Shown one piece after another: positions 2,842-41,025 of a DNA stretch of 64,000 nucleotides. Below the pieces are notes generated by a model. The model ran no database searches, was not told where the DNA came from, and worked only from the letters and a program-made list of their open reading frames with translations. Source of the DNA: Clostridiales bacterium (GTDB lineage: Bacteria > Bacillota > Clostridia > Lachnospirales > Lachnospiraceae). The first letter of the stretch is position 1, and every line of letters starts with the position of its first letter. The position numbers were made by a program, and so were the translations under genes. The stretch spans positions 248,001 to 312,000 of the forward strand of contig DUNO01000001.1 of NCBI GenBank assembly GCA_012839295.1, read 5' to 3'.

Positions 2842-2916
2842 GGAAAGGTATAAAAGGAGCAGCCTGCAGTTCTATAAAGGGGCAGATATCAAAATATAAA
2901 AACGGAGTGATTCATA

Positions 2917-18552: not shown

Positions 18553-18602
18553 AACAGGAAATACAGGCGCTTTATTCTTGCTATTTGCAGGAAATAAAAA
18601 TA

Positions 18603-18679: not shown

Positions 18680-18791
18680 GCTTTACGGCAAGATAATCCG
18701 GTAATTCACCTTGCTAATCCTATTTATCCTATTAACGTTATCTAGAAAGCCTGAGGCTCAAATTTGATTCGTCCAGCAAAGACTCCTAATT

Positions 18792-18928
18792 AACTAACGC
18801 GGTGAATCTGAGTGTCTATCTATCCATCTGGGCGCAGACCGGGCATCCCGTGGTTGCCTGCACTTGGCAATCACGGGATGTTAAAGGCAAGCACAGGTGG
18901 ATAGATAGACACTCAGATTCACCTCACA
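18792..18928. ncRNA. Structured intergenic element, copy 1 (covaries with 40877-41013)
   Basis: A perfect 25-bp outer stem (18801-18825 with 18899-18923) encloses a conserved core (GGGCGCAGACCGGG), an inner 15-bp hairpin with one G-U pair (18844-18858 with 18866-18880, loop TGCACTT) and the single-stranded segment TTAAAGGCAAG. Copy 2 has the same length, core and loop, while seven outer-stem positions and one inner-stem position differ with full compensation. Both copies lie between convergent genes and are bordered by AACTAACGC on the left and TCACA-CCTAAA on the right. It may be a non-coding RNA or a small mobile palindromic element; I cannot match it to a known family. Confidence 0.7.
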
Positions 18929-18979
18929 GCCTAAACTCACAGCCCAAACCCCTACTCATTTAATGTTCGAATCACTCTA

Positions 18980-19519
18980 TCACATCAACGCCTCATATAA
19001 CTTATCAACAGGCCTCGGAATAACCGCACATTCAACCATAAGCTCGCTGACAGCCTTCGCTGCGTTAATTGCCTCTGTTACAGCGCTGACATCACCGCTC
19101 ATAGTAACAAAGCCTTTTCCGCCGACAGCAAAGCCGGTCCGGATTTCAATCAGGTTTACATCCGCTGCCTTTGCCGCAGTATCTGCCGCAATAATAGCAG
19201 AGGCCACGGAATAAAATTCAATGACACCGATGGCTCCGGTGGTTGCTACCTGGGAGGTGCCGCTGATTGCAGGCATAAGCTGGTCACTGACATTTGGTAT
19301 GAATAATTTATCGACTAAGAATTCACCGGCAATTTCCTCGCCTGCCTTCATGGAGGCATTTACCGCACTGGTATTGCCGCCGACGATAACCATGTATTTT
19401 CCCGGGCATATGGTAGATGACCGGAGTAATTCAACGTCAGCCGCCTTTAACATATAATCGCAGGTTTCGATTCCTCTGGCTATACTTGATAGCTCTATCA
19501 TACAAACTGAATTTCCCAT
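18980..19519 (-). CDS. pduT: PduT-like tandem-BMC microcompartment shell protein with Fe-S pore cysteine
   Basis: A 179-aa shell protein made of two BMC domains (about 3-90 and 95-179), which would form pseudohexameric trimers in a bacterial microcompartment facet. The motif LLRSSTICPGK places a cysteine at residue 38, the position that ligates the central 4Fe-4S cluster of Salmonella PduT; this match supports the start at 19519, which also has GGAG 6 nt upstream. An in-frame start at 19588 lacks a ribosome-binding site. The C-terminal VIPRP is also PduT-like. It follows pduS and pduQ homologues, suggesting a role in passing electrons across the shell. Confidence 0.92.
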   Translation of the reverse strand: MGNSVCMIELSSIARGIETCDYMLKAADVELLRSSTICPGKYMVIVGGNTSAVNASMKAGEEIAGEFLVDKLFIPNVSDQLMPAISGTSQVATTGAIGVIEFYSVASAIIAADTAAKAADVNLIEIRTGFAVGGKGFVTMSGDVSAVTEAINAAKAVSELMVECAVIPRPVDKLYEALM

Positions 19520-19677
19520 TTCAAACTCCATTCCGCCGCCCAGCGGCAAATTAAATATTAGTGCTGCATCAGTGTAAATATCAGGCACTGAGTGGAAGAG
19601 AAACTTTCACGATACAGTATTAATGTACTGTCTCATTCATAATTAGACTAACAGCACTGCCTAAATGAACAGAACAC

Positions 19678-21027
19678 TTAGCTTACACGGATTCTGATAC
19701 CGGCAGGTGTCACCTCGCTCACAGTACCGTTTACACTGGCATGTATGTTGGTTGATAATCCCGTATCGTCGGCACGGGCAACCAGGTCACCGGCTGATAC
19801 CCTGTCCCCGGCAGCCTTTACCGCGATTGCAGGCTTTCCGATGTGCTGTGAGAAAGGAAGGAACACTTCGTCAGGCTTGAGGCCGATACAGACATGGGCG
19901 TGGAGTCCGTTATATTTCCCAAGGTTAAGCCTTGCAATGAGCCGGTCCGTTGGGACCTTGCTGAGGTCAACGGAGGATCTTACCTGGGGATTTAAATTTC
20001 TTTCAACAGTAATGCCTCTTTCGCGTAGCTTTCCTTTCATATATTGGTTTGCCCTTCTTGGGGACAGACCCATGGGGCAGGAGAACATCTCGCAGATTCC
20101 ACAGTCACAGCAATTGATCGCATCTCCGAAGCTTTTCTCGAATTCTTCCTGGGTTTCGATTTTGTCCTCCCGCCAAACATTCCTCATGACGAGGTGGGGC
20201 TTAATCCGATGGCCGATCTGGAATCTTGGACATAAATCCGTACACATCCTGCATTGGATACAGGCACTTCTGGTCTGGTGCTTAATGCGGCTGATGGAAA
20301 CCTCGGAGCGTTTAATTAAATAATGGTCTTTTGGCAATACGATAATATTTCCGGTGGTTTTAGTGACAAACTGCTGGTCGATGAGTTTGTCCTCCGCCAC
20401 AACACGCCCCATCATCGGTCCGCCCAAAATAATGGCATATTCACTGACGGTGGGGGAGGCAGCCTTGATACATTCCCTGATGGAGGTGCCGATGGGAACC
20501 TTTAGCATAACCGGTTCCTTTACCTCGCCGACCACAGAGAGGTATTTTTCCGTTGTCTTTTCTCCCTTTGTCACCGCGTTATAGATTCCGATTACAGTTC
20601 CCACATTGTCTACGACGGCGCCCACATCAATGGGGATGCCCCGTTCCGGTACGCATCTTCCGGTCACCTGCTGTACCATGATCTGCTCATCACCTGCCGG
20701 ATAGAAGGTCCTCATCTCAAAGATCTCGATAGCCGCACTGTTCTTTTCAATGGCAGCCTTTAGGGCGGCAATTTCATCCTTATATTTTCCCTTTAATGCG
20801 ATAACTGATTTCTTAGCCTCCAGATGCTCTGCTACCAGCATCACGCCCTTTACTAATTCATCTGCAAAGGCTCTGCATAAATATTTGTCAGTTTCAATTA
20901 AGGGCTCACACTCGGCAGCATTTACGATAAAATATTCTGCTTTTGTATTTAACTTAATATGGGTGGGGAACCCGGCGCCGCCGGCACCGACGATTCCCGC
21001 ATCCTTTATTGTTTCAATCAAATTCAT
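19678..21027 (-). CDS. pduS: PduS-like flavin / dual 4Fe-4S electron-transfer protein
   Basis: A 449-aa RnfC-related protein, reported as a cobalamin reductase in the Pdu pathway. It has a flavin/NADH-binding-like N-terminus (GIVGAGGAGFPTHIKL), an SLBB-like middle, then two cysteine clusters, CIQCRMCTDLCP and CCDCGICEMFSCP, for two 4Fe-4S centres, and a C-terminal biotinyl-lipoyl-like beta region. ATG 21027 has GGAG 7 nt upstream; an ATG at 21039 is in frame but lacks a site. Length matches PduS (about 450 aa). Its partner is the Fe-S shell protein PduT encoded next. Confidence 0.93.
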   Translation of the reverse strand: MNLIETIKDAGIVGAGGAGFPTHIKLNTKAEYFIVNAAECEPLIETDKYLCRAFADELVKGVMLVAEHLEAKKSVIALKGKYKDEIAALKAAIEKNSAAIEIFEMRTFYPAGDEQIMVQQVTGRCVPERGIPIDVGAVVDNVGTVIGIYNAVTKGEKTTEKYLSVVGEVKEPVMLKVPIGTSIRECIKAASPTVSEYAIILGGPMMGRVVAEDKLIDQQFVTKTTGNIIVLPKDHYLIKRSEVSISRIKHQTRSACIQCRMCTDLCPRFQIGHRIKPHLVMRNVWREDKIETQEEFEKSFGDAINCCDCGICEMFSCPMGLSPRRANQYMKGKLRERGITVERNLNPQVRSSVDLSKVPTDRLIARLNLGKYNGLHAHVCIGLKPDEVFLPFSQHIGKPAIAVKAAGDRVSAGDLVARADDTGLSTNIHASVNGTVSEVTPAGIRIRVS

Positions 21028-21078
21028 AGGCTTCTCCATTCATTATCAATCAAGGTTAATCAGTTACGGCAGCATAGC

Positions 21079-22212
21079 TCAGACCGCATACTTACCTTCG
21101 TATGCCCGGATAAAGAGTGTGGTCAGTTCTTCCTTCGTAACCTGTCTCGGGTTGCCGGCGGTACAGGGATCTGCATAGGCAGCCTCCACCAGCTCCGGCA
21201 GTACATCCAAAAAGTCCTGTTTATTTACACCCGCCGCTTTAATACTGGAGGGGATATTTAGCTTGGAAATGTAGTTTCTTAAGGCACGGACGAGATTCAT
21301 GGTACTCTGGCGCTCGTTGGTGCTGTCCAGCCAGATCAACCGTGCGATCTTGGCATAGCGCTTATTTGCCTCAGTCAGCTGGTCGTAGAGGCCTGCATTG
21401 TAGGATATTACGTAGGGCAGCAGGATTGCATTCGCCTTTCCGTGGGGAATGTGGAAATGTGCTCCCAGGGTGTGGGCCATGGAGTGGTTGATTCCGAGGC
21501 CGGAATTACTAAATGCCATTCCCGCAAGGCAGGAGGCATTATGTACCCTTTGCCGGAGAGTCACATCCTCAGGGTTTTCAAAAACCTGGATCAGGAATTT
21601 ATTGGCGAGCTTGATTGCCTTTTCCGCCAGGGCATCGGTAAAATCATTCCTCATATTACAGACAAAGGCCTCAATGGCATGGGTCAATACGTCCATCCCC
21701 GTATCGGCGGTTATGCTCCTGGGAACGGATTTTGTCAGCTCGGCATCAATGATGGCCATGTCCGGCAGCATGCTGTCATCCACCAGGGGATATTTAGTCT
21801 CTGTCTCCGGATCGGTGATTACGGAAAATTTGGTAACCTCTGAACCGGTCCCGCTGGTCGTTGGAATCGCGATAAATCTCAGCTTAACGGAGGCATCCTG
21901 CATCCGGGCAAAATAGATCATTCCCTTTGCCGCATCAATAGGAGAACCGCCGCCGAGGGCGACCACCAGCTCCGGCCTAAATTCTAAGATCAGCTTTACA
22001 CCCTTTACAACGGTAGCAATATCCGGGTTCGGCTTTACGTCTGAAAATATCTTGTATTCAGCTCCATTCAGGTGCTTTGTAATATATTTCGTTACTTCCT
22101 TCTCCACCATGAAGCGGTCGGTAACGATCAGAACCTTGCCGGCACCCCCAAAGGTATTATCATCCCCGGAGCCGATCATTATATCAGTCTTAATACTAAA
22201 AGAGCTATTCAT
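21079..22212 (-). CDS. pduQ: Iron-containing alcohol dehydrogenase (PduQ-like, microcompartment NAD recycling)
   Basis: A 377-aa group III Fe-dependent alcohol dehydrogenase. NAD-binding GGGSPIDAAKG is followed by metal ligands in TGMDVLTHAIEAF and in GLGINHSMAHTLGAHFHIPHG. In Pdu-type compartments this enzyme reduces the aldehyde and regenerates NAD inside the shell. The start is ATG 22212, with AAAGGAG 6 nt upstream; that site lies inside 31-bp tandem repeats able to form hairpins (see 22217-22287). It is the first gene of a pduQ-pduS-pduT operon under the AraC regulator upstream. Confidence 0.92.
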   Translation of the reverse strand: MNSSFSIKTDIMIGSGDDNTFGGAGKVLIVTDRFMVEKEVTKYITKHLNGAEYKIFSDVKPNPDIATVVKGVKLILEFRPELVVALGGGSPIDAAKGMIYFARMQDASVKLRFIAIPTTSGTGSEVTKFSVITDPETETKYPLVDDSMLPDMAIIDAELTKSVPRSITADTGMDVLTHAIEAFVCNMRNDFTDALAEKAIKLANKFLIQVFENPEDVTLRQRVHNASCLAGMAFSNSGLGINHSMAHTLGAHFHIPHGKANAILLPYVISYNAGLYDQLTEANKRYAKIARLIWLDSTNERQSTMNLVRALRNYISKLNIPSSIKAAGVNKQDFLDVLPELVEAAYADPCTAGNPRQVTKEELTTLFIRAYEGKYAV

Positions 22213-22216
22213 GAAT

Positions 22217-22287
22217 TCTCCTTTCAATCGTGGGAAAGGAGAATTCGTCTCCTTTCAATCGTGGGAAAGGAGAATTCGTCTCCTTTC
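22217..22287 (-). repeat. 31-bp tandem repeats covering the pduQ ribosome-binding site
   Basis: Two exact 31-bp units (22217-22247, 22248-22278) and a partial third. On the pduQ strand each unit carries CTCCTTTC followed, after CCACGATT, by GAAAGGAG. The unit next to the start forms a perfect 13-bp hairpin that buries the Shine-Dalgarno site and ends one base before the ATG. Confidence 0.85.
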
Positions 22288-22318
22288 GAATTCGGTAACA
22301 ATCAACATTGAAACCCAC

Positions 22319-22355
22319 ATAAAACAACATTTCGAATAGATATATGTTGTTTTAT
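22319..22355. promoter_or_regulatory. Perfect 12-bp inverted repeat in the pduQ leader (operator or araC terminator)
   Basis: ATAAAACAACAT (22319-22330) and its exact complement at 22344-22355 flank 13 nt. It lies just after a minus-strand TTGACA (22394-22389)/TATACT (22373-22368) pair with a short 15-nt spacer. The AAACAACA core also occurs at the regulator's own promoter region (23267-23296), which favours an operator; termination of the regulator gene is the alternative. Confidence 0.5.
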
Positions 22356-22403
22356 CTTTATTTATAAAGTATATCATATCCGCCCATTTGTCAAGTGAAC
22401 TTG

Positions 22404-23123
22404 TTATTTCTTTATATATTCAACGGGTGATAAAGCATAGTATTTCTTGAATACCCGGCTGAAGTAGGAGTAATTCTGATAGCCCAGCAGCTCGGCTATT
22501 TCGTTAAAATGGTAGACATTGCTTCTCATAAGCTGGATGGCGAATTCCAGCTTGGTTTTATGGATATAGTCAGTGAGGGTTTCACCCACCTCTTCCCTGA
22601 AGCGTTTGGACAGATAGCTGCGGTTTACACTGATGGCCTCAGCCACATCCTTAGCATATAGGAACTTGAATTTATTGTTGTGGATAAATTCGAGGGCCAT
22701 TTTTATTACCAGGGAATATTGCTTCATGGAATATTTCTTTATCGAGGCGAGGAGCTCTTCAAAAGCATTGATATTAATATCTGCAAGCTCGCCCTTATTA
22801 TGTGAGCGGGCAATTTTATAGAAGCAATTCTTTTTAATGGATTCCCCGATATCCTTTGGTAAGCCGTTTTTGATGGAAATCTCAGTCAGAGTGGAAACGG
22901 AATGGGCACAGTAAAGCTTCAAAACCTCAAGGTCTTCGCTTATGACGAGCTGCAGATCCTTGATTTGCTCCGCAATTTCTGCGATTTTATAAACCTGTGC
23001 CGGATCTCCTGAGGAAAGGGAGTCCTGGAAAGCCAGCATGAGCTTGGTGCTTTTTTCGGAGAAATCCGTGTCGTATTCGGAACGGATGGACAGGTCCTGG
23101 GAAATAGAATGGTCAAAATTCAT
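22404..23123 (-). CDS. AraC-family transcriptional regulator of the pdu-like module
   Basis: A 239-aa regulator with a C-terminal AraC DNA-binding domain of two helix-turn-helix units: AKDVAEAISVNRSYLSKRFR and FNEIAELLGYQNYSYFSRVF, ending in PVEYIKK. The N-terminal 130 residues are helical and carry no sensor domain I can name. AGGAGG precedes the ATG. It lies directly upstream of pduQ in the same direction, a common place for activators of microcompartment operons. Its inducer is unknown but should relate to the compartment substrate. Confidence 0.88.
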   Translation of the reverse strand: MNFDHSISQDLSIRSEYDTDFSEKSTKLMLAFQDSLSSGDPAQVYKIAEIAEQIKDLQLVISEDLEVLKLYCAHSVSTLTEISIKNGLPKDIGESIKKNCFYKIARSHNKGELADININAFEELLASIKKYSMKQYSLVIKMALEFIHNNKFKFLYAKDVAEAISVNRSYLSKRFREEVGETLTDYIHKTKLEFAIQLMRSNVYHFNEIAELLGYQNYSYFSRVFKKYYALSPVEYIKK

Positions 23124-23266
23124 GGGATACCTCCTGGAAAAATGGGCGTTACTACTTCAATTGTAAACAAACCGGGGCAAACTCAATTGAAATGGGCTTC
23201 CTTGGGAATGCCTTAAAAAGCTTTGAGAATACCTATTAAACATATTGTAACATGAAATTTAGATAC

Positions 23267-23296
23267 AAACAACAATCAAGCAATAAAAACAACAAT
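23267..23296. promoter_or_regulatory. Direct repeats in the araC/GH3 intergenic region (candidate AraC site)
   Basis: AAACAACAAT occurs at 23267-23276 and again at 23287-23296, exactly 20 bp apart, two helical turns, as expected for an AraC-family dimer site. The rest of 23124-23451 carries A/T-rich sequence with GATAAAAT boxes but no clear promoter. Confidence 0.45.
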
Positions 23297-23451
23297 TGTA
23301 TAACTTCTGGACAAAATACTCTGATAAAATGATAAAATGAAAAATCTTGAATGCCCCTGGAAGAAAGCAATTACGGTTCCAAAATGGTTTGGGGCGCTAT
23401 AGCCGGCAAACAATCCATGAAATAATCCATAAAAAGAAGGGAGAATGCAAT

Positions 23452-25917
23452 ATGCTTTACAAGGATCCAAACAAAACAATTCAAGAAAGGGTGGAGGATT
23501 TACTGGGAAGGATGACCTTAAAGGAAAAGGTAGCCCAGCTCTCCTGCACAATGACAACCGGAAGGGCGGACAATATTGAGAGCATGAGAGGGGAGCTGGA
23601 AAACGGTATCGGTACCATCAGCTATCTGAACAGCTCACTTTCCGGCGATAATGAAAAAGACATGAATAACATCAAAGCGATCCAGAGGCATCTGATGGAG
23701 GAGACGAGGCTGGGAATCCCGGCGCTGATCCATAATGAAGGAATTGCGGGAGCACAGATACCTGGGGCAACAACCTTTCCCCAATCCTTAAATGCGGCAG
23801 CCACCTGGGAACCGGAGCTGGCATACAAAATGGGAGAGGTGGTCCGCAGGCAGATAAAGGCCTTTGGCATCCATGCTGTCCACTCTCCTTTGTTTGACCT
23901 TGGCCGGGATCCAAGATGGGGAAGGATTGGTGAGACCTACGGCGAAGATCCCTATCTGGTGGCCAGGATGGGAACCGCATATGTAAAGGGAATACAGGGT
24001 AACCATGAGGTTATGGCTACGGCAAAGCATTTTGTCGGATATGGAAATGCAGAAGGTGGGAGAAATGGCGGGGAACAGCAGATCGGGAACCGGAAGCTGC
24101 TTGATACCTATTGCTTTCCCTTTGAAGCAGCAATCCAGGAAGCCGGTGTTATGGGTGTCATGAACAGCTATGGTATCTTAAACGAGGAGGCGGTATCCAC
24201 CTCAAAACGGCTTCTGACAGAGGTGCTAAGGGACAAGCTGGGCTTTGAGGGGGTGACAGTGGCAGATTACGGCAGCATAAGCCATGCCTTCGCAAGATAC
24301 CGGGTGGCGGAAACCAAAAAGGACACGGCAATCCTGGCTATAAAAGCAGGGATGGATGTGGAGCAGCCCCAGGGCACCTGTTACCGGTATTTAGAAGAGG
24401 CCGTAGAAGCAGGGGAGCTTGGGATGGAATATATCGACCGTTCCGTTAGGCGGGTATTGGAGACGAAATTTAAGCTGGGCTTGTTTGAAAACCCATATCA
24501 GGAGGGGGATTTTTTTGAGGAGATAAAGCGGCCGCAATATGCGGAGCTTTCCCAGGAAATCGCAGAAAAGTCCATTGTCCTGGTGAAAAATGAGGATCAG
24601 GCCCTGCCACTGTCCGGCGATGGCAAGCTTAAGATAGCGTTAATCGGCCCTTCCTCCGATGTAAAGGCGAATTTCTTCGGAGGCTACTCCTCCGTCAGCA
24701 CGGCCAGCACAACCAGCCGCGACTTTGACCGCTCCGAGGACGACAATTTCATTAAAATGGCATATCAGGCAATGATTACGGAATATAAGGATGGATTGAA
24801 GGCCTACGGGATAGAATTTGAAGACCAGCCGACCCCGGAGCAGAAGCAGGTGATTTTAGCAATGCTGAAGCAGCACCGGTCAGGCTCTGATAAGGCATAC
24901 AAGTCACAGGATGATTTTATGGAAAAATACTATCCGGATTGTAAAACAGTCAAGGAGGCTATGGAAGAGGCCTTTGGAAAGGAGAACATCCTCCATGCAA
25001 GGGGCTGCAATACCCGGGATATGCTGGAGGGAGGAATGGAAGCGGTAATCTCTGCCGTAGGGCAGGCGGACGTCGTCATTGCCGTATTAGGCGGAAGGGA
25101 AAGCATGACTGACCCGGAAGCAACCTGTGGTGAAAATAAGGATAACAGCAATATCAACCTGGAGCAGCACCAGCTGGATATGATGGCGGAGGTATTCAAG
25201 CTTAATAAACCGGTAATATCGGTTATCGTAGATGGAAGGCCTTTGGCAGCGCCGGAAATCAATGATAACAGTAAGGCGGTCCTTTATGCCTGGCTGCCGG
25301 CTCAAAACGGAGCACAGGCAATCGCCAATGTCCTGACCGGCAGGGTAAACCCCAGTGGAAAGCTCCCGGTGACGGTGTTAAAGGAGAAGGGGCAGATTCC
25401 TATGTATTACAGCCGGCTGCCCTTTATGGCGGAGCTTGACGAATGGTCTGAGTATATCGGCCAGGATAAGAATGCCCCAATGTATCCCTTCGGACATGGG
25501 CTTAGTTATACGAAGTTCGAATATTCAGGCTTGGTGATGGAGGATGCTGTTGAAGCAACAGGCAAATTAAAGCTTAGCTTCAAGATTAAGAATACGGGAG
25601 CCTGCGCCGGGGATGAAATTGCCCAGGTCTATATCCGTGACTGTGTCGGCAGCGTTGCCAGGCCAACAAAGCAGCTGGTTGGATTTGTACGGCTGGGATT
25701 GGAGCCTATGGAGGAAAAGCAGCTTTCTTTTGAAATTGATATGAGACAGCTGGCCTTCCATGACCTGAACATGGAGCAGGTGGTGGAGCCGGGAAATATG
25801 GAGGTATACATCGGAGCCTCCTCAGAGGATATCCGATTACAGGGACAGTTTATAATCACCGGTGAAAAGCTTATAGTGGAGAGAAAAGTATTTGCTTCAA
25901 AGGTAATCACAGGGTAA
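23452..25917 (+). CDS. Glycoside hydrolase family 3 beta-glycosidase, cytoplasmic
   Basis: An 821-aa GH3 enzyme that releases sugars from the non-reducing ends of beta-linked oligosaccharides. The barrel domain shows DPRWGRIGETYGEDP, ATAKHFVGYGNAEGGRNGG and the nucleophile D272 in VTVADYGSISH. The second domain contains VLVKNEDQALPL and the C-terminus is a fibronectin III-like domain (GDEIAQVYIRD, RPTKQLVGF). There is no signal peptide, so substrate must be imported. ATG 23452 is chosen (GGGAG 8 nt upstream); upstream in-frame codons lack a site. Specificity (glucosidase or xylosidase) cannot be read from the sequence. Confidence 0.95.
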   Translation: MLYKDPNKTIQERVEDLLGRMTLKEKVAQLSCTMTTGRADNIESMRGELENGIGTISYLNSSLSGDNEKDMNNIKAIQRHLMEETRLGIPALIHNEGIAGAQIPGATTFPQSLNAAATWEPELAYKMGEVVRRQIKAFGIHAVHSPLFDLGRDPRWGRIGETYGEDPYLVARMGTAYVKGIQGNHEVMATAKHFVGYGNAEGGRNGGEQQIGNRKLLDTYCFPFEAAIQEAGVMGVMNSYGILNEEAVSTSKRLLTEVLRDKLGFEGVTVADYGSISHAFARYRVAETKKDTAILAIKAGMDVEQPQGTCYRYLEEAVEAGELGMEYIDRSVRRVLETKFKLGLFENPYQEGDFFEEIKRPQYAELSQEIAEKSIVLVKNEDQALPLSGDGKLKIALIGPSSDVKANFFGGYSSVSTASTTSRDFDRSEDDNFIKMAYQAMITEYKDGLKAYGIEFEDQPTPEQKQVILAMLKQHRSGSDKAYKSQDDFMEKYYPDCKTVKEAMEEAFGKENILHARGCNTRDMLEGGMEAVISAVGQADVVIAVLGGRESMTDPEATCGENKDNSNINLEQHQLDMMAEVFKLNKPVISVIVDGRPLAAPEINDNSKAVLYAWLPAQNGAQAIANVLTGRVNPSGKLPVTVLKEKGQIPMYYSRLPFMAELDEWSEYIGQDKNAPMYPFGHGLSYTKFEYSGLVMEDAVEATGKLKLSFKIKNTGACAGDEIAQVYIRDCVGSVARPTKQLVGFVRLGLEPMEEKQLSFEIDMRQLAFHDLNMEQVVEPGNMEVYIGASSEDIRLQGQFIITGEKLIVERKVFASKVITG

Positions 25918-25929
25918 AATTATAGAATT

Positions 25930-25966
25930 CCGCCACAACCATCACAATTGGCGATGGTTGTGGCGG
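25930..25966. terminator. Hairpin between convergent GH3 and AraC genes
   Basis: A perfect 14-bp stem (25930-25943 with 25953-25966) and 9-nt loop lies between two convergent genes. It lacks a long T-run but its position fits a shared bidirectional terminator. Confidence 0.6.
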
Positions 25967-26013
25967 GCATAAAAGGCAGTCCCCATTCCTGTCTTATCAG
26001 TTCCCGGATCACA

Positions 26014-27282: not shown

Positions 27283-27301
27283 GGATATCACCTCTTTCAG
27301 A

Positions 27302-27329
27302 TAAGTTATATAAGTTATAATAAGTTATA
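27302..27329. promoter_or_regulatory. Three direct TAAGTTATA repeats (candidate AraC operator)
   Basis: TAAGTTATA occurs at 27302, 27311 and 27321, about one helical turn apart, just upstream of the AraC gene start and about 110 nt from the divergent GH3 gene. Confidence 0.4.
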
Positions 27330-27375
27330 AGCTCCGGAAGTATGAATATATACTCTAATCTACGAATTTATATTA

Positions 27376-27402
27376 TTGATATTTTCATATACAGTGTATA
27401 AT
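27376..27402 (+). promoter_or_regulatory. Predicted promoter of the second GH3 gene
   Basis: TATAAT at 27397-27402 has TTGATA at 27376-27381 (15-nt spacer) or TATTGA at 27374 (17-nt spacer) upstream. The ATG follows at 27440. Confidence 0.45.
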
Positions 27403-27439
27403 AATCTTAGCATTTTGTAAAGGAGAAGGAGGTATTGCA

Positions 27440-29188: not shown

Positions 29189-29249
29189 AGGCGGCTGGAT
29201 CGCGGAGTGCCTGCCGTTTCACATGTAATTATATAAAATTAAAAAGAGA

Positions 29250-29303
29250 GAACGTGTTGCATCCTAGCTGATAATGCCAGCTGAGCAATACGTTCCTTTT
29301 TTT
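29250..29303 (+). terminator. Intrinsic terminator after the NagZ-like GH3 gene
   Basis: Outer arms 29250-29260 and 29285-29295 pair over 11 nt, with an inner AGCTG/CAGCT pair, followed by a seven-T run. Confidence 0.8.
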
Positions 29304-29330
29304 GCCCTTTTGTAAAGGGGATTATGTATG

Positions 29331-30758: not shown

Positions 30759-30788
30759 AAATCCTCCTCATTACTATAATTCAGTCCA

Positions 30789-31817: not shown

Positions 31818-32070
31818 TTTTTTACTCCAATGTAAATGTATTTTATAATAGTTGGTATGCTAAAGTATTAGTAAATTGATGCTGTCCTGTGAATAATTAA
31901 GGGGATTTGCATCTTTTTTATGATAGCATAAATTGGTAATAATATAAAGTGTATTTTGGATATACGTTTCAATAACTATATTTACGATAGGAATTATAAC
32001 AAAGAATTTCGATGCATGGAATATACAAAATGACTAAAAATATTGCTGGTAAATTAGATATAATAGCATA

Positions 32071-32099
32071 TTGACGGCAAAAATAAATGCGAATATAAT
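32071..32099 (+). promoter_or_regulatory. Predicted promoter of the sulfatase/ABC operon
   Basis: TTGACG (32071-32076) and TATAAT (32094-32099) are spaced by 17 nt. A TAGCATA copy (32064-32070) abuts the -35 box and may belong to the LacI operator. The first ATG follows at 32142. Confidence 0.65.
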
Positions 32100-32141
32100 G
32101 GTTATACGATTAAACAAAATTGATCAGGAAAGGAAATGACA

Positions 32142-33533: not shown

Positions 33534-33546
33534 GAGGGAAAGCGAG

Positions 33547-35034
33547 ATGAAAGCGATTATGGTAATGTTTGATTCTTTAAATAAGAATTTTTTGCCTCCC
33601 TATGGATGTGATTGGGTTCATGCTCCCAACTTTTCCCGGCTGGCAGAGCATGCGGTGACCTTTAAAAGGGCTTACGCGGGAAGCCTGCCCTGTATGCCGG
33701 CCCGCAGGGAATTGCATACCGGTAGGTTGAATTTTCTTCATAGAAGCTGGTCGCCGCTGGAGCCTTTTGATGATTCGGCACCTGAAATCCTTAAAAATGC
33801 AGGAATCCACACCCATTTAGTCAGTGATCATGGGCATTACTGGGAGGATGGCGGAGCAACTTACCATACCAGGTATTCTACCTGGGAAGGCGTCCGGGGA
33901 CAGGAGGGGGATCCGTGGAAGGGTAATCTTTCACCATGTATTCAGCCATCAGGAAGGATGGAAGATGAAAATACGGAAATCCCTGCATTTAAACAAAAGC
34001 TTTACCGGCAGGATGCGATAAACCGCAATCACCGCCAAAGCAGCGGTAATAGCTGTCAGCGTCTGACCTTTGACAAGGGTCTGGAATTTATTGAGACAAA
34101 CCAGGCTTATGACAACTGGTTTGTCCAAATAGAATCCTTTGACCCACATGAACCTTTCTTTACCTATGAAGAATACCTGGAGATGTATCACAAGCCCGAT
34201 ATCGGAAAGGACATAGACTGGCCTCCTTATGGACGTGTCCATGAATCGGAGGAAGAGGTTGAGTACATCCGCACAAAATATGCGGCGTTACTTTCCATGT
34301 GTGATGAAAATCTTGGAAGAGTGCTTGATAAGATGGATCAATATGATATGTGGAAGGACACCATGCTTATCGTAAATACGGATCACGGATATCTTCTGGG
34401 AGAGCACGGATGGTGGGCCAAAAATATTATGCCATGCTACAACGAAATTGCTAATATTCCATTATTTATATGGGATCCAAGGTGCAAAGCAAAGGATGAA
34501 TACCGGGAAAGCCTTGTACAGACCATTGATCTGGCTCCTACGCTTCTGGAGTATTTTGGATGTGCAATTCCGGGGGATATGACAGGTAAATCCTTAGCGG
34601 ATACCATTGCAAAGGATGTACCCATAAGAGAGTTTGCAATGTTTGGATATCATGGAAATCAGTTGAACATAACGGATGGAAGATATGTATATATGCAGGA
34701 TGCTGTAAACCGGGAGGTTCCGCTTTATGAATATACCTTAATGCCAAATCATATGAACTGCAGAATGGGAGCCGCCCTTGAACATGCAACGCTGGCGAAG
34801 CCCTTCAAATTCACCAAGAATATGCCCTTACTTAAGATCCCTGCCGCAAAAGGCACGGACACCATAACCGGTTCCTATGGATCCCAGCTGTTTGATTTGG
34901 AAATGGATCCAGGACAATTACATCCGATCAAGGATGAGCAACAGGAAAAGAGGCTGCGTAAGGCGATGAAGGAGCTGATGAAGGGGCACGATGCCCCGGA
35001 GGAATTATTCCGGCGTATGGGCATGACAGATTAA
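33547..35034 (+). CDS. Sulfatase 3 (Cys-type, cytoplasmic)
   Basis: A 495-aa sulfatase. The motif is C49-M-P-A-R53 in GSLPCMPARRELHTGR. Metal-site residues appear in MVMFDSLNKNFLPPYG (D9) and VNTDHGYLLGEHGWW; SDHGHYWEDGG and FDPHEPF supply further active-site positions. No signal peptide. ATG 33547 is chosen (GGAGGG at 33532-33537); the gene begins 13 nt after sulfatase 2. Its sequence is clearly different from sulfatases 1 and 2, suggesting another sulfate position or sugar. Confidence 0.92.
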   Translation: MKAIMVMFDSLNKNFLPPYGCDWVHAPNFSRLAEHAVTFKRAYAGSLPCMPARRELHTGRLNFLHRSWSPLEPFDDSAPEILKNAGIHTHLVSDHGHYWEDGGATYHTRYSTWEGVRGQEGDPWKGNLSPCIQPSGRMEDENTEIPAFKQKLYRQDAINRNHRQSSGNSCQRLTFDKGLEFIETNQAYDNWFVQIESFDPHEPFFTYEEYLEMYHKPDIGKDIDWPPYGRVHESEEEVEYIRTKYAALLSMCDENLGRVLDKMDQYDMWKDTMLIVNTDHGYLLGEHGWWAKNIMPCYNEIANIPLFIWDPRCKAKDEYRESLVQTIDLAPTLLEYFGCAIPGDMTGKSLADTIAKDVPIREFAMFGYHGNQLNITDGRYVYMQDAVNREVPLYEYTLMPNHMNCRMGAALEHATLAKPFKFTKNMPLLKIPAAKGTDTITGSYGSQLFDLEMDPGQLHPIKDEQQEKRLRKAMKELMKGHDAPEELFRRMGMTD

Positions 35035-35210
35035 GGGCACACGGTATCCATAGTTATAGATTTCCCTTCGCTTTAGAGGATGATACGGTCATAGCTATTT
35101 GCCAAAGCGCAGAGGAATTTATATAAATGTAAAGCACGGATCCAATAAATTCAATGGCTTCAGGGCTTTTACAAAATGCATTTAAAAATCATAATAAGGA
35201 GAGGGAAATA

Positions 35211-36815
35211 ATGAAGAAAAAAATTACGAGATGGGTATGTACAGTTATGGCAGGTTGTATGTTGATCGGGTTACTCGCAGGATGTACAAGCGGCAGCAGC
35301 CCGAAGGAGACCGGTACCCCGGATGCAAATTCCGATAACAGCACGGCCACGGACAAAGCAGTAACAAGCATTACGATTGGAACGTCTGATGCCTGGGATA
35401 CATTGACTCCGTTCCGTACAACACAGAGCCAAATGTCATCAATGGTAAGATATATTTATGACAGGCTCGCATATCAGACTGCTGATAACAGGTATATCCC
35501 CCAGGTGGCAAAAAGCTGGGAGGTTGAAGACGATGGTGTTACATGGAATGTTGAGATTTTTGATTATGTAGCAGACTCTGAAGGGAATCATATTACGGCA
35601 AGTGATATTGTATGGATGCTTGAAGAGTCTATGGCACAGGGACTGAAGCCCTGCTACAATAAAATTGCCAGCGTAGAGCAGACAGGAGATTACTCCTTTA
35701 AGGTTGTTATGAAACAAGATATAGTGAACTCCTTTGAGCTTGTCCTTGTAAGCACCTATGTGGTATCCCAGAAGGCATATGAAGCAAGTACAGATGACTT
35801 TGCTGCTAAAACAATATCCACATCTCCCTATCTTGTAACGGATTTTGTATCCGGCTCCCATATTACCTTTAAGAAGAGGGATGATTATTGGCAGAAGGAA
35901 GAATTGATTGATAAAGCCCAAGCCAATAATCTGGAGACGATTACTTATAAAATTATCAAAGAGGCTTCCCAGCAGCAGGTTGCCCTTGAAACAGGAACGG
36001 TTGATGCCTTTGAGAACATTAGTGCAACGGTTGTACCTGCATTTGAAGGTAATGCTTCCTATGAAACTGTCCAATTCCCCAGCAGTAACGGCATTCAATT
36101 ATTCTATTCCGGTGATGAAAGCAGGGTCATAGCAAAGGATGAAGATCTTTGCCGTGCAATCTCTTATGCCATTGATGCGGAAGGACTGGTAGCCGGAGTA
36201 TATAATGGATACGCTAAAGTAATGCATGATGCGGCTGTTGAGAGCGTTGTTGGGTATCTGGAAAAATGGAATGATGAGGAATATTTCCCCTATGACGTGG
36301 ATAAGGCAAAGGAATATCTGGCAAAATCCAATTACAAGGGTGAGGAGCTGGAGCTGCTTTGTATGTCTGATTCTACATCACAGCGTATCGCCCAAATGAT
36401 TCAAAATTATCTGCTGGCAGTTGATATTAAGCTAAAATTAAACATTGTGGATGCAGCGTTGTTTTCCGCATCCCGTTTTGATGGCGCACAATACGATATG
36501 ATTATTATAAATGCAGGTGCAGGATCCTTGCCGGCATTTTGGTCAAACCGCTTTGACAGCACTGCATATGAAAAAGGTGATGGTACGGCACGCAATGATG
36601 AGGTTTTAACAGCAATGCTGTATTCTACATGGACCAATGAAGGCTTTACAGAAGAAAATATCGATGCGGTCCGCCGGTACATAATTGACCATGCATATGC
36701 GTATGGTATGTGTCTTCCTACAAGCTGCAGCATCTATGCTAAGACCCTTTCCATTCAAGAGATCGTCAGCCTCCCCGCCGGTACCCTTGATTTTGCGGCC
36801 TGCGTTTATCAGTAA
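35211..36815 (+). CDS. ABC importer substrate-binding lipoprotein (SBP_bac_5, oligopeptide/dipeptide type)
   Basis: A 534-aa lipoprotein: MKKKITRWVCTV, hydrophobic core, lipobox LLAGC with acylated C25, then an S/T/D-rich linker. The body (TPFRTTQSQMSSMVRYIYDR, VAKSWEVEDDGVTWNV) is family-5 solute-binding protein, which binds peptides, nickel or, in some members, oligosaccharides. The operon partners are sulfatases, so sulfated oligosaccharides or glycopeptides are likely cargo. AAGGAG sets the start. The 176 nt upstream (35035-35210) hold no clear promoter. Confidence 0.92.
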   Translation: MKKKITRWVCTVMAGCMLIGLLAGCTSGSSPKETGTPDANSDNSTATDKAVTSITIGTSDAWDTLTPFRTTQSQMSSMVRYIYDRLAYQTADNRYIPQVAKSWEVEDDGVTWNVEIFDYVADSEGNHITASDIVWMLEESMAQGLKPCYNKIASVEQTGDYSFKVVMKQDIVNSFELVLVSTYVVSQKAYEASTDDFAAKTISTSPYLVTDFVSGSHITFKKRDDYWQKEELIDKAQANNLETITYKIIKEASQQQVALETGTVDAFENISATVVPAFEGNASYETVQFPSSNGIQLFYSGDESRVIAKDEDLCRAISYAIDAEGLVAGVYNGYAKVMHDAAVESVVGYLEKWNDEEYFPYDVDKAKEYLAKSNYKGEELELLCMSDSTSQRIAQMIQNYLLAVDIKLKLNIVDAALFSASRFDGAQYDMIIINAGAGSLPAFWSNRFDSTAYEKGDGTARNDEVLTAMLYSTWTNEGFTEENIDAVRRYIIDHAYAYGMCLPTSCSIYAKTLSIQEIVSLPAGTLDFAACVYQ

Positions 36816-36875
36816 ACGATAATGTGGAAGCAATTGATCGGATATCGCTCCATGATGGAAGGAAGGAACTAGATA

Positions 36876-37835
36876 ATGTTAAGATATATTTTAAAGAGAA
36901 TTCTATGGATGATACCCATAGTACTTGGTGTGGCAATTATCGTATTTACATTAATGTCTTTTTGTCCTGGTGACCCGGCCACGATCATCCTTGGTTCAAC
37001 TGCAACAGAGAGCGACCTCACGGCGATGCGGGAGGAGCTTGGGCTAAATAAGACATACATAGAGAGATTAGGAACCTTCCTATATGATACCTTTATCAGG
37101 TTTGATTTCGGAGAATCCTGGATAACACGGACAAGTATTAAAGCGGCTATAATAGAACGGTTGCCGAGAACGATGCTCTTGACCATAGCGACCTTGGGCC
37201 TTTCGACTCTCATCGGTATTTCATTAGGGATTATGGCAGCCATTAATCAGGGGAACTGGAAGGATAATTTCTGTATGGCCTTTGCCTTAATAGGTGTCTC
37301 TGTTCCGGATTTTTGGCTGGCGTTGCTTCTGATCCTCCTGTTCTCAGTGAAGTTGGGGTGGCTTCCTGCGATGGGTATCGGTGGACTGCAGTATTATATC
37401 TTGCCGGCAATGGCCGGGTGTATGGGCGGCATAGCTGCCCTGGCCCGGCAGACACGGTCCAGTATGCTGGATGTAATACGTGCAGATTATATTACAACGG
37501 CCAGATCCAAGGGCGTTCCGGAATTCAGGGTTATTACAAGGCATGCGTTAAAGAATGCATTTATCCCGATCATCACTATTATTGGCACACATTTCGGTAA
37601 AATGCTGGGAGGAGCAATGGTTATCGAAACTATTTTTGCGATCCCGGGTATGGGCTCCTATATTGTAACAGCTGTAAATTCCCGGGATTATCCTGTGGTT
37701 CAGGTTGGCGCTGTCTTTTTAGCTATTGTATTTAGCATATGCATGTTAGGTGTGGACTTGATTTATGCGGCAGTAGATCCTAGAATCAGGGCCCAGTATG
37801 GAAAAAAGAGTAGGAAGGTGAAGGTAAATGCTTAA
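36876..37835 (+). CDS. ABC importer permease (DppB/OppB-like)
   Basis: A 319-aa inner-membrane permease with six predicted helices, starting MLRYILKRILWMIPIVLGVA, followed by a large external loop with GDPA and the cytoplasmic EAA-type loop ARSKGVPEFRVITRHALKNA that couples to the ATPases. GGAAGGA precedes the ATG. It overlaps the next permease gene by 8 nt, showing translational coupling. Confidence 0.94.
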   Translation: MLRYILKRILWMIPIVLGVAIIVFTLMSFCPGDPATIILGSTATESDLTAMREELGLNKTYIERLGTFLYDTFIRFDFGESWITRTSIKAAIIERLPRTMLLTIATLGLSTLIGISLGIMAAINQGNWKDNFCMAFALIGVSVPDFWLALLLILLFSVKLGWLPAMGIGGLQYYILPAMAGCMGGIAALARQTRSSMLDVIRADYITTARSKGVPEFRVITRHALKNAFIPIITIIGTHFGKMLGGAMVIETIFAIPGMGSYIVTAVNSRDYPVVQVGAVFLAIVFSICMLGVDLIYAAVDPRIRAQYGKKSRKVKVNA

Positions 37836-38712
37836 TACGATGGCAGGAAAAACACAAATTAAGATAAAAAAGAAGTCTGAATTCATGAGAACCTTAAAGC
37901 AGATGAGCTATAATAAGCTGGCCGTTTTTGGTGCTATTGTGTTTGCAATTGAGTTAATACTTGTTATATTGGCTCCGCTCATTGCACCTTATGGGTATGC
38001 AGAGATGGATATGGCTGCGGCATATCAGCCGCCTTCCTGGGCACATCTGTGCGGAACAGATGATCTGGGAAGGGATATCTTTAGCCGTTTGCTATATGGC
38101 GGACGCTATTCAATCACAATGGGTATTTTCAGTATCGGAATTTCAGTCATGCTGGGTATTATCATCGGCTCTACCGCAGGCTATTTCGGTGGGAAGGTTG
38201 ATAATATTATTATGAGGTTTTTGGATATCATCCAATCTCTTCCGGGCATGCTGCTTACCATCGTAATTTCAGCGGTTCTCGGTTCCGGATATATCAATAC
38301 AATCCTGTCTCTTTCGGTAAATGGTATTCCCGGACAGGCAAGAATGCTGCGTGCGCAGATGATGAGGGTCAGGGGAAGTGAATACATAGAGGCAGCAGAA
38401 TCCATCAATTGCAGCAAATTCAGAATTATTGCGAAGCATCTGATTCCGAATTCATTTTCCCCGCTGATTGTACAAGCAACCATGGGCGTCGCAAATATGA
38501 TTATCATGGCAGCCGGCTTGAGCTTTATCGGTCTTGGAGTCCAGCCTCCTGCTTCCGAATGGGGAGCGATGCTTTCCGGTTCCAGGCAGTTCATCAGATC
38601 CAGTCCACATATGGTATTCTTTCCGGGGCTTGCCATTGCAATCACAATTCTCGCCCTCAACCTGATGGGAGACGGACTGCGTGATGCACTGGATCCGAAA
38701 CTGAAACGCTAA
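37828..38712 (+). CDS. ABC importer permease (DppC/OppC-like)
   Basis: A 294-aa permease with six predicted helices. The N-terminal region carries LAVFGAIVFAIELILVILAP and HLCGTDDLGRDIFSRLLYG, the hallmark DxLGRDxxSR of DppC proteins; the coupling loop is IEAAESINCSKFRIIAKHLI. The start overlaps the previous gene by 8 nt and AAGGTGAAGG lies upstream. It forms the heterodimeric channel with the DppB-like protein. Confidence 0.94.
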   Translation: MLNTMAGKTQIKIKKKSEFMRTLKQMSYNKLAVFGAIVFAIELILVILAPLIAPYGYAEMDMAAAYQPPSWAHLCGTDDLGRDIFSRLLYGGRYSITMGIFSIGISVMLGIIIGSTAGYFGGKVDNIIMRFLDIIQSLPGMLLTIVISAVLGSGYINTILSLSVNGIPGQARMLRAQMMRVRGSEYIEAAESINCSKFRIIAKHLIPNSFSPLIVQATMGVANMIIMAAGLSFIGLGVQPPASEWGAMLSGSRQFIRSSPHMVFFPGLAIAITILALNLMGDGLRDALDPKLKR

Positions 38713-38730
38713 GGAAAGGAGGCAGAGTAT

Positions 38731-39732
38731 ATGTCGGATGAAATAAAAGAAAGCATGCCATTTCTGGAAGTAAAGAATTTAATTGTTGAATACTTTACAA
38801 GTGAACAGACGGTTCATGCGGTCAATGGTGTTTCCTTCAAACTGGAAAAAGGAAAGACATTAGGCCTCGTTGGTGAGACCGGTGCAGGAAAAACATCAAT
38901 TGCAAAAGCCATCCTTCGGATATTGCCCGATGTCGGAGCAAGGATTGCCAAAGGGGAAGTATGGCTGGCAGATGAAAATATCACGCGTATATCGGAAGAG
39001 GAAATGAGAAAAATCCGTGGGAAAAAGATATCTATGATTTTCCAGGATCCTATGACGGCGCTTAATCCGGTTCAACGGGTAGGTGACCAGATTGCCGAGG
39101 TAGTATCCCTGCACAATAGCGGAACAAAGGAGAGCTTCAAGAAAAGGGCAGAAGAAATGCTTGAAATGGTCGGGATACAGAAGGAACGCTATGGGGATTA
39201 CCCACACCAGTTTTCCGGCGGAATGAAGCAGCGGGTGGTGATAGCAATTGCGCTGGCATGTAATCCGGAGCTTCTGTTGGCGGATGAGCCAACAACAGCC
39301 CTTGACGTAACGATACAGGCCCAGGTTCTGAAGTTAATCGATAACCTGAAAGAAAAGCTCAATACATCCATGGTATTAATTACCCATGACATGGGTGTGG
39401 TGGCAACGCATTGTGATGATGTTGCAGTTGTTTATGCGGGAAATATTGTTGAATATGGAAGTAAAGAGCAGGTATTCGATCATCCGGCCCATCCATATAC
39501 CATAGGGCTGTTCGGAGCTATCCCAAATCTGGGCAGGGACGAAGAGTGGTTACATCCCATTGAGGGACTTCCGCCGGATCCGTCGGATTTGCCGGAAGGC
39601 TGTTCCTTCCATCCCCGCTGTAATTATACAACAGAGGAATGTAAGGCTGGAACGATAGACATGTTGGCTACGCCTGATGGGCACCAATGCCGTTGCATCC
39701 ATATGGATAGAGTCTTGAAAGGAGAGGTTTAG
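38731..39732 (+). CDS. ABC importer ATPase (DppD/OppD-like)
   Basis: A 333-aa ATPase: Walker A GETGAGKTS, signature FSGGMKQRV, Walker B LLADEPTTALD, and switch His in ITHDMG. The C-terminal oligopeptide-specific extension contains GCSFHPRCNYTTEEC. GGAGG lies upstream. It pairs with the next gene as the second of two ATPases, as usual in this importer class. Confidence 0.95.
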   Translation: MSDEIKESMPFLEVKNLIVEYFTSEQTVHAVNGVSFKLEKGKTLGLVGETGAGKTSIAKAILRILPDVGARIAKGEVWLADENITRISEEEMRKIRGKKISMIFQDPMTALNPVQRVGDQIAEVVSLHNSGTKESFKKRAEEMLEMVGIQKERYGDYPHQFSGGMKQRVVIAIALACNPELLLADEPTTALDVTIQAQVLKLIDNLKEKLNTSMVLITHDMGVVATHCDDVAVVYAGNIVEYGSKEQVFDHPAHPYTIGLFGAIPNLGRDEEWLHPIEGLPPDPSDLPEGCSFHPRCNYTTEECKAGTIDMLATPDGHQCRCIHMDRVLKGEV

Positions 39733-39733
39733 C

Positions 39734-40684
39734 ATGCGACCAGTAATCGAAGTAAAAAACCTCAAAAAATATTTCCCGGTTGCAAACGGTGTGCTCCATG
39801 CGGTTGATGATGTGTCATTATCCATAGGAAGAGGAAAGACGTTGGGTGTTGTAGGGGAATCAGGCTGTGGAAAATCAACACTGGGCAGAACGATTATTCA
39901 TTTGCAGGAGCATACCTCCGGAGAAATTTTTTTACATGGAGATGATATCTCTAATTTAAAAGGAAAGGAATTGCGGAAAGTCCGCGAGAAAATGCAGATT
40001 ATTTTCCAGGATCCATATTCGTCAATCGATCCCAGGAAAACAGTGGATGCAACGATCCGTGAGCCACTGCAGGTATCAAAAAGGTATAAGAGAAATGAAA
40101 TTGACGATGTAACCACAGAGCTGATGGAGCTGGTAGGCATTGATAACCGCCTGAGAATGTCTTACCCTCATGAGCTTGACGGCGGGCGCAGGCAGCGGGT
40201 AGGAATTGCCAGGGCGCTTGCACTGAATCCTGATTTTGTTGTATGTGATGAGCCGGTATCTGCCCTTGACGTTTCTATCCAGGCACAGGTATTAAACCTA
40301 CTGAAAAAGCTTCAGCAGCAGAGAGGGCTGACTTATATGTTTGTTACCCATAACTTGTCGGTAGTCAAGCATATTTCAGATGATATTTGTGTCATGTATC
40401 TTGGGCAGGTAGTCGAATTATGTCCGTCTAAGGAACTTTTCAAAAATCCTCTGCACCCGTACACCAAAGCATTACTCTCAGCCATTCCCTCCATCGATAT
40501 TCATAATCCGAATAAGCCTGAAATTTTAAAAGGAGAGCTAACATCCCCAATTAACCCAAAGCCGGGATGCCGGTTTGCTTCAAGATGTAACTTTGCAACA
40601 GAAGCCTGTAAACAGCCCCAAAAGCTGCAGGAAATTTCCTCAGGGCATTTTGCCGCATGCTGCAGGGTAAGAGAGATACAGTGA
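39734..40684 (+). CDS. ABC importer ATPase (DppF/OppF-like)
   Basis: A 316-aa ATPase: Walker A GESGCGKST, Walker B VCDEPVSALD and the switch His in VTHNLS. The signature reads LDGGRRQRV in place of the usual LSGGQ, a substitution of the signature serine. The C-terminal extension has GCRFASRCNFATEAC. It starts 1 nt after the previous stop. Last gene of the operon, followed by a terminator. Confidence 0.95.
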   Translation: MRPVIEVKNLKKYFPVANGVLHAVDDVSLSIGRGKTLGVVGESGCGKSTLGRTIIHLQEHTSGEIFLHGDDISNLKGKELRKVREKMQIIFQDPYSSIDPRKTVDATIREPLQVSKRYKRNEIDDVTTELMELVGIDNRLRMSYPHELDGGRRQRVGIARALALNPDFVVCDEPVSALDVSIQAQVLNLLKKLQQQRGLTYMFVTHNLSVVKHISDDICVMYLGQVVELCPSKELFKNPLHPYTKALLSAIPSIDIHNPNKPEILKGELTSPINPKPGCRFASRCNFATEACKQPQKLQEISSGHFAACCRVREIQ

Positions 40685-40771
40685 ATATAAAGAGAAATAC
40701 ATAATGATCATTTTCCCGGTACCACGAAAATGATAAGCTAAAAGAATATAATCCAAAGGCTTAAACCCAAA

Positions 40772-40818
40772 GAAACCTGTTGTTGCACTATAACTAACGC
40801 AACAGCAGGTTTCCTTTT
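40772..40818 (+). terminator. Intrinsic terminator of the sulfatase/ABC operon
   Basis: Arms 40772-40786 and 40799-40813 pair over 15 bp with one G-T pair, followed by CTTTT. The loop includes AACTAACGC, the same 9-mer that borders the structured element at 40877. Confidence 0.7.
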
Positions 40819-40876
40819 CGTAATAAAACTCCTATAAAACAATATAATTCCACCCAACAGAAGGCTCCATACATTA

Positions 40877-41013
40877 AACTAACGCGGAGAATCGGAGGGG
40901 CTCCATATCCATATGGGCGCAGACCGGGCCTCCTGTGGTTGCCTGCACTTGGCAATCACGGGAGGTTAAAGGCAAGCCCAGGTGGATATGGAGCCCCTCC
41001 GATTCTCCTCACA
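40877..41013. ncRNA. Structured intergenic element, copy 2
   Basis: Same length and layout as 18792-18928: perfect 25-bp outer stem (40886-40910 with 40984-41008), invariant core GGGCGCAGACCGGGC, and an inner hairpin with loop TGCACTT (40929-40943 with 40951-40965, two G-U pairs). The outer stem here extends inward with TGGGC/GCCCA. It ends 12 nt before the stop of the minus-strand ATPase gene, again between convergent genes. Confidence 0.7.
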
Positions 41014-41025
41014 ACCTAAATCCCA

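Follow-up and report, generated by a model that had tools for sequence, protein, structure and literature searches.

A dispersed hairpin element with copy-specific, compensated arms and traces of mobility in Herbinix

Described small repeats and the Herbinix element

The EFAR repeats of Enterococcus faecalis are palindromic miniature insertion sequences that insert at terminator-like stem-loops, and by description only they resemble a hairpin element of which two copies lie in the stretch of DNA analysed here (the window; 64,000 nt, positions 248,001 to 312,000 of contig DUNO01000001.1 in assembly GCA_012839295.1). The window belongs to a genome of the genus Herbinix (G000; 6.36 Mb in 82 contigs), a member of the Lachnospiraceae in the NCBI taxonomy; other genomes are likewise given G-numbers, and loci L-numbers. 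The copies at 18792-18928 (copy 1) and 40877-41013 (copy 2) had been described in an earlier note as a two-copy structured element and a likely non-coding RNA, with a palindromic mobile element as the main alternative.

Among described systems, the Correia/NEMIS elements of Neisseria are alike in being small and non-autonomous, with 24-bp terminal repeats and target duplication, and their transcripts form stem-loops that are proposed RNase III targets (PMC2229807, partial text). Unlike in Correia/NEMIS, the main stem of the Herbinix element is internal, its arms are private to each copy, and its conserved internal-loop core is also found with other ends. The YPAL/RU-2 repeat of Yersinia, compared by description and not by sequence, is similar in its size of about 168 bp, its internal inverted repeats and its filled and empty sites, and might influence upstream transcript stability; it differs in target duplications of 3-26 bp, and the available part of its description mentions no copy-specific compensated arms (PMC2229807, partial text). 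Multibase compensatory changes resembling those reported below have been attributed to replication template switching, which was proposed to maintain RNA hairpins in this way (PMC8794818, partial text); that work follows the histories of RNA genes, whereas the Herbinix arms sit in dozens of dispersed copies of one genome. The attC sites and the OTH-22-1 structured DNA motif are comparable hairpin-type structured DNA, a matter of resemblance only (PMC8632094, partial text). Neither the element itself nor the word Herbinix was found in titles and abstract starts, a survey that covered subscription journals thinly and does not prove absence from the literature.

The element is interpreted as a non-autonomous transposable element, similar to a miniature inverted-repeat transposable element (MITE), whose long hairpin has a conserved core with an internal loop, GCAGACCGGC ... 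GGWAAGGCA. Once the element is inserted, its terminal repeats would decay and the hairpin would stay, and the arms would drift to a private sequence in each copy. Their complementarity would be kept mainly by replication template switching, in which one arm is rewritten from the other and the segment between the arms is occasionally inverted. The folded + strand would additionally be kept by selection, most visibly in the core, and retention would favour copies that lie close behind a gene's 3' end in one orientation. Taken as a whole, this interpretation is held to be rather probable. Its interest lies in the fact that stem covariation is commonly read as strong evidence for functional RNA. 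Here, one genome holds dozens of differing yet compensated stems with signs of a DNA-level mechanism as well as signs of selection, a natural replicate series in which slow wobble compensation can be tested against instant template switching.

Copy number and traces of mobility in Herbinix

The element is far from restricted to the two copies first noticed. The exact core 16-mer occurs at 60 sites in G000, and with up to three mismatches at 110 sites, compared to 11 for the reversed pattern; a blast search of copy 1 against G000 gave 105 candidates, 40 of which were scored. Both core ends were recovered for 68 copies, from 85 of the core sites examined (loci L001-L008 duplicate later-numbered loci). 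Omission of 10 copies cut by contig ends, of L074, which has no right arm, and of L066 and L044, which have arm indels, left 55 full ungapped copies, divided into family A (42) and family B (13, including L092, which the script assigned to B and whose core is A-like). The left arms of all 55 are distinct. Within family A, pairs of copies differ on average at 27.8% of arm positions and 6.8% of core positions. Two subfamilies are visible, TCCATCTGGGCGC and TGCATCTGGCGC.

In well-preserved Herbinix copies the hairpin lies inside a unit of roughly 170-270 bp bounded by terminal inverted repeats of about 20 bp, whose consensus, TGATTYGAGYGYCAWAAGTC, was derived from copies in ten Herbinix genomes. 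L131 and L144 match it without mismatch at both ends, and a related terminal-repeat pattern occurs in 10 of 10 Herbinix genomes (none with a reversed control). The ends have decayed in many G000 copies, and recognisable repeats at both ends remain in 32 of 124 Herbinix copies. Nine of these 32 are flanked by an exact 5-bp target duplication, compared to a shuffled mean of 0.67 and a maximum of 4 in 2000 shuffles. Empty sites were detected in the sister species G012: all five G000 copies whose two flanks fall on one G012 stretch have no element there. The site of copy 1 is empty in G012, with the aligned flanks 58 bp apart as opposed to 476 bp in the window; for copy 2 only the right flank was matched. 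At the left gene of L053, G012 carries a different subfamily of the element. In L293, the G012 counterpart of L064, a left-end-like stretch runs straight into the right foot, so that the palindrome has apparently gone from an orthologous element (by eye).

Terminal inverted repeats, target site duplication and empty sites in relatives were all found. The element thus shows the MITE features tested apart from an identified autonomous partner; it matches no Rfam family and does not fit the definition of an intrinsic terminator. With the dispersed copies and two inverted cores (see below), these traces make the palindromic mobile element with homogenised arms the better supported of the two proposals in the earlier note.

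Facing terminal repeats were sought in 760 kb of sequence, which contained four pairs less than 700 bp apart and, among longer pairs with at most seven mismatches in all, a single one (1841 bp, L287). The latter was considered as an autonomous transposon and rejected, as it holds a copy of the element and another frame, which we take to be DegV-like, but no transposase. The repeat lists of G004 and G031 contained no facing pair 0.3-10 kb apart. Very many terminal repeats were observed in G010 and G024 (69 and 57 at up to one mismatch), and several of those in G024 face each other at 99-110 bp, a distance too short for the usual hairpin. Carriage by phages or plasmids was also rejected, as blastn gave no match in either. 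Viral contigs contained 27 pattern matches, among which the search R1 gave one weak match (E 0.7), and these are probably due to chance; two terminal-repeat patterns had no viral match.

Compensated arms in the window, in Herbinix and in other genera

The two window copies share one architecture, with the following parts:

18765..18784, + strand: probable left terminal inverted repeat of copy 1 (decayed TGATTYGAGYGYCAWAAGTC, the consensus from ten Herbinix genomes)
18793..18800, + strand: conserved left foot ACTAACGC of copy 1
18801..18826, + strand: left hairpin arm of copy 1 (26 nt)
18827..18897, + strand: core of copy 1, inner hairpin and conserved internal loop GCAGACCGGGC / GTTAAAGGCAAG
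18898..18923, + strand: right arm of copy 1, complementary to the left one throughout
18924..18935, + strand: conserved right foot TCACAGCCTAAA of copy 1
18955..18974, - strand: probable right terminal inverted repeat of copy 1 (decayed)
40878..40885, + strand: conserved left foot ACTAACGC of copy 2
40886..40911, + strand: left hairpin arm of copy 2 (26 nt)
40912..40982, + strand: core of copy 2
40983..41008, + strand: right arm of copy 2, complementary to the left one throughout
41009..41020, + strand: conserved right foot TCACAACCTAAA of copy 2; right terminal repeat not recognisable

Most of the structural description in the earlier note was reproduced. Both copies are 137 nt long; their outer stems are perfect, with a length of 26 bp (18801-18826 with 18898-18923, and 40886-40911 with 40983-41008) rather than 25 bp; the left arms differ at seven positions, all seven matched in the right arm; and within the inner hairpin one A-T pair is exchanged for C-G and one G-U pair is new. 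Common to both copies are the flanks AACTAACGC and TCACA(G/A)CCTAAA, and convergent open frames lie on either side of each. The core and loop, previously given as identical, differ at five positions, two of them unmatched (TCT/TAT before GGGCGC, and GCACAGG/GCCCAGG). Copy 1 probably extends beyond its 137 nt to the decayed terminal repeats listed above, which differ from the general consensus at 8 and 6 of 20 positions and from variants found in G000 at 6 and 4. The predicted + strand folds have energies of -91.7 (copy 1) and -101.4 kcal/mol (copy 2), with z-scores of -13.67 and -14.22 and none of 200 shuffles as good for either copy; the - strand folds are weaker (-84.9 and -88.0 kcal/mol). 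The search R2 detected only these two sites in the window at E 1 or better; as each is palindromic, it scores on both strands. Left of copy 2 lies a further hairpin, at about 40775-40825, with the left-foot motif of the element, ACTATAACTAACGC, in its loop (by eye); it is perhaps a remnant.

The compensation extends through the genus. Of the 1760 arm cells in the 55 full G000 copies, 81 are G·U, 19 are A·C and 25 are mismatched in other ways. An alignment of 53 sequences, drawn from ten Herbinix genomes, has 96.0% of its arm cells paired and double changes in 22 of 24 pairs, and none of 500 shuffles reached any of five measures.

The wider distribution is patchy. Search R1 of 61 relatives gave matches in 10 genomes, all of them (including G000) among the 34 members of the genus and none among the 27 others. 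Search R2 found the element in 6 of 295 genomes of the order, and search R3 found the same core in 9 of 392 Lachnospirales genomes (7 of 173 genera), or 8 of 391 besides G000; as six candidates per genome were scored in the R3 search of the order, its copy numbers are minimum values and some occurrences may have been missed. From a draw across the class, R3 recovered G000 only (1 of 391). Core-pattern matches in contigs outside Herbinix were rejected as homologs: among the matches listed, R1 scored two (E 0.65 and 0.67) in 30 loci tested, probably by chance. Further homologues, on which the earlier claim of a structured element depended, are thus present in G000, in other Herbinix genomes and in other genera.

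From 28 of 34 loci of other genera, a motif script recovered 37 copies. Their core has the form GACCGGCY-GA ... GA-RGGWAAGGCA and their arms are mostly perfect or near-perfect, and their ends differ where seen (by eye), as in a repeat of about 28 bp around one G134 copy. In G071, where the script recovered five of six loci, mean identity is 98.7% in the core and 55% in the arms; 22-24 of 24 arm positions pair in four copies, and in the fifth an arm indel lowers the score to 14 of 24. A cross-genus alignment of 33 sequences has double changes in 32 of 35 pairs and 92.9% of cells paired, with none of 500 shuffles as good. Longer versions of the hairpin, seen in some Herbinix, G039, G056 and G387 copies, contain a second conserved internal loop (by eye).

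Several loci of these genera have unusual arrangements. In L370, L371 and L372 (G056) the hairpin has another long hairpin at most about 330 nt to its left, with conserved inner sequences of its own and arms that differ from copy to copy. L336 (G290) has copies at 2916-3002 and 3545-3627 in opposite orientation, about 540 bp apart; no frame of 40 amino acids lies between them, and related stretches recur in other G290 loci. L378 (G220) packs five copies into about 1 kb, with three of them in one orientation and two in the opposite one.

How the arms remain matched was addressed by the type of exchange. In family A, pairwise and therefore non-independent comparisons gave 2805 compensated exchanges of the type A:T/C:G, 1657 transitions and 422 others. 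The core differences are mostly transitions (2350 compared to 1291 transversions). Between nearest-neighbour copies, 37 compensated transitions, 56 compensated transversions and 66 unmatched differences were counted. Mismatches of the transversion type are rare in the outer 25 arm columns, with 3 of 1050 cells in family A and 8 of 325 in family B. In two full copies, L023 and L069, the core is inverted against its flanks. Arm homogenisation and spacer inversion are both reported outcomes of template switching between inverted repeats (PMC8604942, partial text). The inverted cores, the transversion-rich compensation and the rarity of transversion mismatches therefore point to replication template switching between the arms, the second of these because stepwise change via G·U should favour transitions. 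Template switching is thus the presumed mechanism of arm rewriting.

Selection on the fold and position at gene ends

Selection on structure, as proposed in the earlier note, is supported by the ten-genome covariation and by an excess of G·U in Herbinix. In the G000 arms, the ratio of G·U to A·C is 58:19 when one fixed column is excluded (p 1e-5); it is 57:19 in nine other Herbinix genomes (p 1.5e-5) and 54:7 in the inner hairpin of G000. Mutation bias is not supported as the cause of this excess, since the flanks show no C>T or A>G excess on the + strand (based on 22 of 37 flanks on the left and 34 of 38 on the right; L023, L069, L020 and L042 also left out). Hairpin quality in G000 is independent of the state of the ends (rho -0.09, p 0.51): in 16 of 54 copies both repeats have at least 7 of 20 mismatches, and on average 0.69 of 25 arm positions are unpaired, compared to 0.22 of 25 in nine copies with good ends. 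The preference for G·U over A·C, the conserved core and the persistence of hairpins beyond their terminal repeats indicate selection on the fold in Herbinix.

These data also bear on the idea of a purely selfish element, whose arms would be homogenised by template switching, whose cores would be alike through the youth of the copies and whose fold would be under no selection. The many copies and the patchy distribution in the order (9 of 392 genomes) agree with it, and arm homogenisation is a known by-product of inverted repeats (PMC8604942, partial text). The 16 G000 copies with both terminal repeats near background still pair their arms, however, the core is common to genera with differing arms and, where seen, differing ends, and the Herbinix G·U bias has no counterpart in the mutations of the flanks. 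Homogenisation alone is thus insufficient given the conserved core and the Herbinix strand bias, and a purely selfish element is regarded as improbable.

The opposite proposal is that the copies are dispersed non-coding RNA genes or domains, with a + strand RNA that works in trans or in cis and with covariation caused by selection on RNA alone. Covariation over ten Herbinix genomes and over genera, the G·U excess in Herbinix, and the combination of a nearly invariant core with free arms, as in G071, would be expected of such a family. No Rfam family was found on the hairpins, however: a gathering-level scan of the window with Rfam 15, which covers ribozymes and bacterial RNA motifs, detected only a T-box elsewhere, in agreement with the earlier statement that no known family could be assigned, and permissive scans of related loci gave only microRNA-precursor scores below gathering on the hairpins (T-box, tRNA and a weak intron score elsewhere in these loci). 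Neither did the two window regions 18540-19000 and 40680-41040 contain a promoter-like site. The many dispersed copies with terminal repeats and empty sites, the more frequent transcription of the other strand by neighbouring genes, and the compensated transversions with few mismatched intermediates also weigh against this proposal, which is considered unlikely. Of the likely non-coding RNA in the earlier note, the selected fold is supported and the RNA gene remains a less likely reading. The fold presumably acts as RNA or as single-stranded DNA.

Copies lie preferentially 40-70 nt downstream of the 3' end of a gene and in one orientation. With neighbour strands taken from the longest open frame near the element rather than from annotation, the 3' end of the right neighbour points toward the element in 34 of 50 copies of G000, in 32 of 48 from other Herbinix genomes and in 17 of 24 from other genera; the corresponding numbers for the left neighbour are 21 of 50, 13 of 48 and 10 of 24. 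The median right-side distance is 38.5 nt in G000 and 46 nt in other Herbinix genomes; for two sets of copies from other genera it is 56 and 67 nt. Among 122 copies, tandem arrangements are biased to the minus orientation (59, compared to 20 plus; p 1.3e-5), and per this bias the neighbouring messenger RNA (mRNA) carries the strand complementary to the one that folds better. Candidate reasons are an antisense role, an insertion preference and a purge from transcripts of the orientation that folds strongly. In its action the element may be analogous to NEMIS and YPAL, as a small repeat able to bring a large hairpin to the ends of genes.

The orientation bias, the favouring of one strand in Herbinix, and the maintenance of structure with free arm sequence could also suggest a folded single-stranded DNA site for a recombinase or single-strand transposase, in the manner of attC or REP/IS200, where the structure and not the arm sequence is recognised. 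Typical of attC are simple sites RYYYAAC/GTTRRRY and an integrase, and of REP/REPIN elements a genome that codes for a REP-associated tyrosine transposase. The 20-bp terminal inverted repeats and 5-bp duplications point instead to a double-strand transposase, and hairpins persist where the ends have decayed. If genes run with replication, moreover, the favoured strand would not be the expected lagging-strand template. A folded DNA site of this kind is therefore judged very unlikely.

Several observations weigh against the preferred interpretation, that of a MITE-like carrier with template-switched arms and a selected fold. Of the 32 copies with recognisable repeats at both ends, 23 lack an exact 5-bp duplication. 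Neither an autonomous partner nor a transposase was detected, in an analysis that included no transposase family search and left most genomes unscanned for facing repeat pairs. Core inversion is limited to two full copies, and strong selection against mismatched intermediates could mimic both the transversion-rich compensation and the rarity of mismatches. The G·U bias is not confirmed outside Herbinix, where G·U to A·C is 11:22 (p 0.08; 37 copies from 8 genomes), although 12 of the 22 A·C come from the short-armed copies of G220 and likely reflect a register error. The tandem bias outside Herbinix is weak (12 compared to 5 in 24 copies) and at most suggestive, and the orientation bias does not explain why the + strand fold is favoured.

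The placement behind genes raises the further possibility of a domesticated 3'-end element, in which the hairpin would replace or supplement the terminator of the upstream gene or protect the 3' end of its mRNA. It is consistent with the orientation of right neighbours given above and with a terminator-like hairpin and T-run seen by eye in G012 where G000 has the element, at the counterparts of L066 (both flanks matched on one stretch), L039 (copy 2; matched by its right flank alone) and L071 (whose two flanks fall on different stretches). In contrast, no terminator-like site (stem and T-tract) was detected on either strand in the two window regions, so that the definition of an intrinsic terminator does not apply. 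Terminators are also similarly frequent near element-adjacent genes and elsewhere (15 of 41 compared to 32 of 78 with a looser finder; a strict finder recovered 2 of 28 controls and was uninformative). A terminator lies between stop codon and element in 4 of 41 cases, a count limited by the shortness of that stretch. At L020 a terminator is kept beside the element, and the mRNA contains the less well paired strand. Domestication as a 3'-end element thus appears doubtful; if the placement is functional, it would offer a mobile element a route to supply gene-end signals in a bacterial order.

A broader reading would make the hairpin a new class of structured nucleic acid of the Lachnospirales: an internal-loop core on a long stem whose sequence is irrelevant and rewritten by template switching, which rides on several unrelated kinds of element with terminal repeats and owes its retention at the 3' ends of genes to an action of its fold there. 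This is put forward tentatively, as an idea that falls short of probable.

The genes around copy 1 (17992-19588) code for a SelR-domain protein and a BMC-domain protein, and those around copy 2 (39734-41820) for two ABC transporter ATPases. Farther along the window, a T-box leader (RF00230, 96.4 bits, gathering level) at 51089-51342 overlaps the start of a frame at 51318.

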